NCBI RefSeq assembly: GCF_015169395.1
Contig: NZ_CP063458.1
Coordinates: 372,001 to 436,000 of the forward strand
Source of the DNA: Humisphaera borealis
GTDB lineage: Bacteria; Planctomycetota; Phycisphaerae; Tepidisphaerales; Tepidisphaeraceae
Direction: 5' to 3'
DNA: 64,000 nt
Shown piece after piece: positions 33,983 through 37,079 of the stretch. The notes beneath the pieces were generated by a model that was not told where the DNA came from, did not search any database, and saw nothing but the letters and a program-made list of their open reading frames with translations. The number at the start of each line of letters is the position of its first letter. Within the stretch, counting starts at the first letter, position 1. A program made the translations under genes and the position numbers.

Positions 33983-34353
33983 TCGCACGGGGGTGACGCT
34001 GGTGGGTGGGATGGTGGATGCCTTATTCGAACGTGGACTGCACTGTGTTCGCGCCAGGCAGTCCCATTTCACAGGCTGGTAACTGAGTTCCAGCGTGAGC
34101 CCGGCGTTTACGGAAGGGCTAGTTCGGGCGACTCTAGAATGTCCCGGGGTAACACACAACGCACAAAGTGCCATACGGCCTCAGCCGGCAAATCCGTCGG
34201 GTCCGGCCGTTCCTCTAGATTTCCGACGCGGCTGTCCGATAATGACTTCGTGGATCGGGGTCCGCGCTGGTGCCCGGGCTGGAAGCCTGTGCTACGCGAG
34301 TCGATTCGGTCGGCAGCCCTGAGCTGCCACCTGCGGCAAGGAGGCCGCACGCG

Positions 34354-36239: not shown

Positions 36240-36281
36240 ACCAAAGATGAATTATTTCCTACCCAAGAGGAGTGTGACCTC

Positions 36282-36287
36282 TATAAT
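36282..36287 (+). promoter_or_regulatory. TATAAT -10 element before the candidate structured RNA
   Basis: A perfect TATAAT lies at 36282-36287, about 10 bases before the first hairpin of the candidate RNA. No good -35 hexamer is visible at 16-18 bases. The local A+T enrichment (36240-36290) is unusual for this genome. Confidence 0.5.
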
Positions 36288-36297
36288 GCCTCCATTC

Positions 36298-36421
36298 GTT
36301 GTTCGCGAGGTGCGGACAACCTTCGGCTGCAGGCGGTAAAGCTGGCAGGGAAGCTGGATCTTTACCGGCGGGAACGCACAAGTCGGCCATTCCGGCCTTA
36401 ACTTGCAGCCCACCGTTTTTT
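36298..36421 (+). ncRNA. Candidate structured RNA (small RNA or leader) upstream of the DUF2617 gene
   Basis: The segment folds by inspection into two compact units. A 5' hairpin pairs GTTGTTCGC (36298-36306) with GCGGACAAC (36312-36320), nine pairs including one G-U, around a 5-base loop. A long-range stem pairs GGCTGCA (36325-36331) with TGCAGCC (36404-36410). It encloses CGGTAAAG/CTTTACCG (36334-36341 with 36360-36367) and a smaller GGCC hairpin near 36384-36396. CACCG then leads into T6 at 36416-36421, as at an intrinsic terminator. With TATAAT at 36282 this looks like a short transcription unit of about 130 nt, or a leader controlling the gene at 36501. It matches no RNA family that I recognise (not SRP, 6S or a common riboswitch by eye). 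Confidence 0.5.
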
Positions 36422-36431
36422 CCGATGTCTA

Positions 36432-36466
36432 AGAGGTCCCGGTGGTAGTAACTTCCACCAGCCTCT
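36432..36466 (+). promoter_or_regulatory. Leader hairpin before the DUF2617 gene
   Basis: AGAGG/CCTCT (36432-36436 with 36462-36466) and GGTGG/CCACC (36441-36445 with 36455-36459) form a two-part stem. A small GGAGA/TCTCC hairpin (36473-36489) follows and would bury a Shine-Dalgarno-like GGAG. Both lie within 70 bases of the start codon. Confidence 0.45.
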
Positions 36467-36500
36467 CTATTTGGAGATTGAAATTCTCCTAAGAAAGAGC

Positions 36501-37079
36501 ATGGACGCTATGTCGACCAATAACAGAACCAAACAACGTCGTTCCGGAGGCCTGAGCCTTCACCTGTACCAGCGCGCCCTCCACCCGGAGCTCTTCAAGA
36601 TCCTCGGGAGCGAGCAGGTCGTGCGTCGCGCTTACGAAGCCGACATCTGGCTCGTTGAAGGTGGCCATGTCGTTACGTTTGTCGCCGGCAAGACCTCACT
36701 CGTCGAAGTCATCGTCACGGGCAACGAACAGCTTCCCGATCGCAACCTGATCCAGGCGCTTCAGTGTCGTGGTGAACGCTACCACGAGACAACGATCGGT
36801 CCTAATGTGCGCTACATGATCAGCACCCAGGAAGAGCAGCTGACCCAGACGCTGTACGACGCAACACGCCATGAAATCAGCACTTACGCGGCCAAGCGTG
36901 AGCTGATGAGCGCCGAAGGACAGTTCACCGGCGACGCCGGCGGTTACCTCAGCGTTCTCGATATCGAATGCCGCAGCCACGAACTGCTCGTCCAGAGCTT
37001 CCACCTGTTTGACGACAACCAGCTGGTCATCAAGACGCAGGCCATCTTCGAAGTCGCCAAAGAGCCGCGACAGAACTGA
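36501..37079 (+). CDS. DUF2617 family protein
   Basis: The product is 192 residues from the ATG at 36501; the ATG at 36510 is equally possible. The opening LSLHLYQRALHPELFKIL, the central WLVEGGHVVTF, the LQCRGERYHETT segment and the closing LLVQSFHLFDDNQLVIKTQ match my recollection of the planctomycete DUF2617 family, whose function is unknown. It is predicted soluble and cytoplasmic with mixed alpha/beta character. It is preceded by the structured-RNA candidate and hairpins and followed by a terminator, so it is probably a single-gene unit with leader-level control. Confidence 0.72.
   Translation: MDAMSTNNRTKQRRSGGLSLHLYQRALHPELFKILGSEQVVRRAYEADIWLVEGGHVVTFVAGKTSLVEVIVTGNEQLPDRNLIQALQCRGERYHETTIGPNVRYMISTQEEQLTQTLYDATRHEISTYAAKRELMSAEGQFTGDAGGYLSVLDIECRSHELLVQSFHLFDDNQLVIKTQAIFEVAKEPRQN

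Follow-up and report, generated by a model that had tools for sequence, protein, structure and literature searches.

The stretch of Humisphaera borealis DNA analysed here (64 kb, hereafter the window) carries a set of predicted helices directly 5′ of a gene for a DUF2617 protein, and the question raised by this locus is whether these helices belong to a stand-alone small RNA or to a cis-acting leader of the DUF2617 mRNA, and how such an element would act. The elements listed in an earlier note on this DNA (TATAAT, a 9-bp hairpin, a GGCTGCA/TGCAGCC stem, a CGGTAAAG/CTTTACCG stem and T6) were all found again and are collated below with the further features of the locus.

36282–36287, + strand: –10 box TATAAT, read directly; the sole + strand TATAAT in the 64 kb
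36298–36320, + strand: H1, 5′-terminal hairpin GTTGTTCGC-GAGGT-GCGGACAAC, from the fold; a covarying stem in 15 hand-aligned leaders
36325–36331 with 36404–36410, + strand: P2, long-range stem GGCTGCA/TGCAGCC, from the fold; encloses P3 and a small hairpin
36334–36367, + strand: P3 hairpin; lower stem CGGTAAAG (36334–36341) with CTTTACCG (36360–36367)
36342–36346/36353–36357, + strand: apical stem of P3, CTGGC/GCTGG, continuing the lower stem
36347–36352, + strand: P3 hexaloop AGGGAA (6-nt loop), predicted upstream CsrA-type site
36385–36388/36394–36397, + strand: small hairpin within P2, GGCC, from the fold
36416–36421, + strand: T6 run, read directly
36432–36466, + strand: P5 hairpin, from the window fold; a hairpin lies at the same place in many relatives
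36473–36489, + strand: P6 hairpin GGAGA-ttgaaat-TCTCC, just 5′ of the ribosome-binding site; covarying in 18 hand-aligned relatives
36492–36499, + strand: Shine–Dalgarno(SD)-like AGAAAGAG, near-invariant in family leaders
36499–36508, + strand: predicted SD-proximal CsrA-type site GC-ATGGAC-GC; GC-AYGGAM-GC in nearly all family leaders
36510–37079, + strand: DUF2617 coding sequence (Pfam PF10936, E 5.5e-7), the presumed regulated gene

The genes 5′ of DUF2617 are, nearest first, one for an Rce1-like CAAX protease and fliM. No open reading frame of at least 60 aa and no tRNA or tmRNA was found across the leader region, the GC content of which is 56% (63% for the window); the region is more A+T-rich than its surroundings, as had been claimed. 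The promoter-like signal reported earlier stood as far as the –10 box is concerned, a TATAAT-like hexamer being present at the matching place in the 22 family leaders used, whereas the –35 box is weak. From the position of the –10 box, transcription is expected to start near 36294. An ATTATTTyCTAC-like stretch 5′ of the –10 box (window about 36250–36287) is common to most family leaders and is possibly an unusual –35/UP element of the lineage.

The predicted fold is moderately better in energy than dinucleotide shuffles (z –2.26 for 36290–36425 and –2.71 for 36293–36512). Because this difference is modest, the window sequence alone would not settle the structure, and the evidence beyond chance for it is comparative. 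DUF2617 orthologues were present in 23 of the 26 family genomes searched. A comparison with 60 relatives by DNA similarity reached the sister genome only (the third match was a 21-nt stretch), and the orthologous leaders were therefore located via the DUF2617 protein; no second copy of the leader was found in the genome. The leader structure is kept 5′ of DUF2617 in about 20 relatives, all within the same family. The shared layout begins with a TATAAT-like box and with a hairpin where the transcript is expected to start; these are followed by a near-invariant long-range GGCGG/CCGCC stem, which encloses a hairpin and corresponds to P2 of the window, by a hairpin adjoining the ribosome-binding site, by AGAAAGAGCAYGGACGC and by ATG.

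Paired cells in a hand alignment amounted to 91% for H1, 85% for P3 and 98% for P6, as compared with 68%, 47% and 62% after swapping of arms between sequences; the arms had been picked for pairing, which favours high values, a bias partly answered by the arm-swap control and by an alignment of ten sequences. The latter (A2) is a subset of a first MAFFT alignment of 22 leaders, in which divergence was too high to derive a consensus fold; a shorter sub-alignment, in which P2 was misaligned, was dropped. In A2, 86% of the cells of H1 and P2 were paired (39–55% for slid partners), and six of the seven H1 pairs showed double changes; P2 hardly varies in this alignment and so adds no covariation. 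A covariance model was built from ten leaders, none of them from the genus of the window. This held-out model matched the window at 36289–36507 over all 211 model positions (41.1 bits, E 9.7e-10). The covariation looked for upstream of DUF2617 orthologues was thus found in the hairpins, with a full-length match to the window, and the suggestion of a cis-acting leader was borne out. Across 61 whole genomes all strong matches (E < 1e-6) fell on DUF2617 leaders within the family of the window; matches elsewhere were weaker (best E 8e-4, in G058) and unconvincing. Several held-out leaders were matched in part only (e.g., L009, L014 and L022), and under the stricter filters of the whole-genome scan the window's own leader was not among the listed matches. 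A search of the window region against Rfam 15 up to E 10 yielded no family (two sub-threshold chance matches lay elsewhere), and 19 orthologous loci gave no match either, in agreement with the earlier view of an undescribed structured RNA of no known family. Judged from these sequence comparisons, the DUF2617 mRNA has a real leader that is structured, conserved and undescribed.

The –10 box, the 5′ hairpin and T6 at 36416–36421 could also be taken to delimit a stand-alone small RNA of about 130 nt with its 3′ end at T6. This reading, which the earlier note had offered together with a terminator-like signal at T6, is very improbable. The T6 run is a weak signal that was not reported by a terminator scan; it is absent from the sister genome (G001), the leader of which goes on in like manner, and conservation extends through P6 to the ATG. 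Because T6 is missing in the closest relative, the element is regarded as an mRNA leader (5′ UTR) rather than as a terminated small RNA, and because T6 is unconserved and was not reported by the scan, the predicted unit is the entire DUF2617 5′ UTR, from about 36294 to 36509. The conserved unit does not end at T6, as had been supposed, but reaches the start codon at 36510. The stretch probably acts as a switch of translation and not as a small RNA in its own right. In the predicted fold of the window the T run pairs with the ribosome-binding site (36415–36422 with 36493–36500). This pairing is unconserved, and the idea that the U run acts as a conserved anti-SD element was rejected, as only the window's fold supports it.

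The feature that recurs within the leader points to CsrA, an RNA-binding regulator widespread in bacteria, the high-affinity site of which (CsrA/RsmE) is an ANGGAN hexaloop on a stem (PMC4005645). In 20 of the 22 leaders the apical loop of P3 has a GGA at the homologous position, on covarying stems of changing sequence; in the window the loop reads CUGGC-AGGGAA-GCUGG (36342–36357), with a GGA loop-exposure probability of 1.0. The highest GGA loop exposure per leader averaged 0.55, as compared with 0.14 ± 0.05 for dinucleotide shuffles and 0.12 ± 0.05 for control windows from the same loci; owing to the common descent of the leaders, the shuffle comparisons are not independent trials. Among the 64 trinucleotides GGA was the most loop-exposed in the leader region. 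ANGGA was present in 13 of the 20 loop GGAs (e.g., UUC-ACGGAU-GAA, AUAC-ACGGAA-GUAU and GCG-AGGGAU-CGC); the A two bases upstream is missing in seven, which counts against CsrA. Directly 5′ of the ATG, the family leaders carry a near-invariant AGAAAGAG-GC-AYGGAM-GC. A GGA close to the start codon is in itself no rarity, as it forms part of AAGGAG Shine–Dalgarno sequences. Elsewhere in the 26 genomes the 14-mer SD pattern occurred near chance (about eight extra matches, four for a reversed control). The SD-proximal GGA was unpaired only to about 0.4 on average in the models, which likewise counts against CsrA.

Exceptions were found within the family: both sites are missing in L018 (G009) and L026 (G017), in which DUF2617 and csrA are present, L014 (G020) lacks the P3 GGA, and in L027 the SD-proximal ANGGA is missing although there is a strong ACGGAU hairpin (GAGGCUCU-ACGGAU-GGAGCCUC). 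In DUF2617 leaders from other families of the class the paired sites were missing; L029–L034 had no ANGGAN hairpin of at least 3 bp, and L028 had one weak ANGGAN hairpin. From these exceptions and the other-family leaders, the two-site design appears to be specific to the family of the window and to have been lost at times.

CsrA (PF02599) is encoded in all 26 family genomes, and owing to this invariance a comparison of co-loss between csrA and the sites is uninformative. In the genome of the window, CsrA has the key RNA-binding residues L4 and R44, and an intact fliW lies directly upstream of csrA. The features expected of a CsrA-controlled leader were thus found together: a CsrA with RNA-binding residues, an ANGGA in a hairpin loop of the 5′ UTR, and a GGA adjoining the SD and start codon. 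The glgC leader has one site in an upstream hairpin and another at the ribosome-binding region (PMC7652899). Translation of DUF2617 is quite likely controlled by CsrA via the leader in a glgC-like manner. The leader would be transcribed from its own promoter as the 5′ untranslated part of the DUF2617 mRNA and would fold into H1, P2 enclosing P3 with its A-N-GGA-N hexaloop, P5, and P6, with AYGGAM between SD and ATG. Being a dimer, CsrA has two RNA-binding faces; it would most likely hold the P3 loop at high affinity and also reach the weaker of the two sites, at the ribosome-binding site, so that ribosome entry would be blocked. DUF2617 would be made once CsrA is titrated, probably by FliW. 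We infer from this arrangement physical binding by CsrA, repression rather than activation, bridging of the sites and an input from FliW. The distance of about 152 nt between the two sites in the window counts against bridging unless the path is made shorter by the helices in between; E. coli CsrA has been shown to bridge over 10–63 nt (PMC7652899).

Two other explanations of the conserved helices were weighed against control by CsrA. The GGA of the P3 loop may be a site for an RNA-binding protein other than CsrA or for a base-pairing small RNA, or may contribute to the stability of the mRNA, its resemblance to a CsrA site being incidental. The several helices conserved beyond the two sites, more than CsrA alone would need, and the members in which the A of ANGGA is missing speak for this reading, which is unlikely all the same: csrA leaders of the same family share the design of ANGGAN on a stem, and a hexaloop hairpin also occurs at the fliM start. 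Similarly unlikely is a ligand-sensing riboswitch (for example for polyamine or S-adenosylmethionine) that exposes or hides the ribosome-binding site. It would fit the length and multiple branching of the leader, the pairing of the window's U run with the Shine–Dalgarno sequence, and the best structural match of the DUF2617 model, S-adenosylmethionine decarboxylase. The U run, however, is unconserved, Rfam riboswitches gave no match, and an aptamer-like core is missing, the 13 invariant columns in ten leaders being one H1 base, letters of the P2 stem, one loop G and the SD block. The riboswitch- or attenuator-like function considered in the earlier note is therefore less likely than a CsrA-type translational leader, because the recurring feature is the ANGGA loop together with AYGGAM beside the ribosome-binding site. 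A family-specific planctomycete leader that docks CsrA and in addition senses another signal, by its multi-branched P2 core or by the U run paired with the ribosome-binding site, in connection with a DUF2617 protein resembling AdoMet decarboxylase, is a doubtful proposition.

The predicted structure of DUF2617 is confident (pLDDT 90). Its best structural match by VIA-align was human S-adenosylmethionine decarboxylase (Z 8.6, 151 residues, 4.0 Å; the next row had Z 5.6). Foldseek alone returned only weak hot-dog-fold matches, and a profile search of PDB sequences with DUF2617 gave no support for the likeness to S-adenosylmethionine decarboxylase. Actinobacterial DUF2617 has been reported from operons with polyamine genes (PMC11237479). 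The likeness of the model and this operon context hint at a link of DUF2617 to polyamine or AdoMet, and may serve as a lead.

Candidate sites for CsrA were also found at other genes. ANGGAN hairpins of at least 4 bp, not more than 250 nt upstream of csrA, were present at 16 of 30 csrA loci, as compared with 10% of random windows, and their stems varied; most csrA leaders of the family (L076–L099, among them L097) have a perfect hairpin of this kind. In the genome of the window (L097), CGCGAC-ACGGAC-GUCGCG lies about 148 nt before csrA. The perfect hairpins in csrA leaders suggest that csrA is autoregulated. Only five ANGGAN hairpins of at least 5 bp were found on the two strands of the 64 kb window taken together, one of them P3 and another at the fliM ribosome-binding site, which lies within the hexaloop of UGCGGC-AAGGAG-GCCGCA (34332–34349, + strand). 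The fliM starts of L035 and L036 read GCGGC-AGGGAG-GCCGC and GUGGC-AUGGAG-GCCAC, a compensated stem. The flagellar gene fliM is a possible second target of CsrA. No description of CsrA targets in Planctomycetota was found in the open-access literature. If the proposal is true, DUF2617 would be a directly testable CsrA target, its regulation would offer access to a protein the function of which is unknown, and the FliW–CsrA system of this lineage would use the classical ANGGAN hexaloop; a structured leader missing from Rfam could thus be explained by a known mechanism.

The DUF2617 leader is most likely a new leader family with a mechanism of a known kind. It resembles the CsrA-repressed glgC leader of E. 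coli in combining, on the same mRNA, a loop GGA in an upstream hairpin with a GGA at the ribosome-binding region; it differs from it in its gene, its length (about 215 nt), its several further conserved helices and the spacing of its sites (about 152 nt), and CsrA binding is here predicted from sequence. With the RsmE/RsmA site of hcnA and the stem-loops of RsmZ it shares the ANGGAN hexaloop placed directly on a stem, as in UUC-ACGGAU-GAA of the relative L043. The hcnA site overlaps the SD itself, whereas the hexaloop hairpin of the DUF2617 leader lies far upstream and its SD-proximal site has a stem of only 2–3 bp. The csrA leaders of the same family likewise have perfect ANGGAN hairpins ahead of their gene; strong matches to the DUF2617 covariance model in the 61 genomes were confined to DUF2617 leaders.
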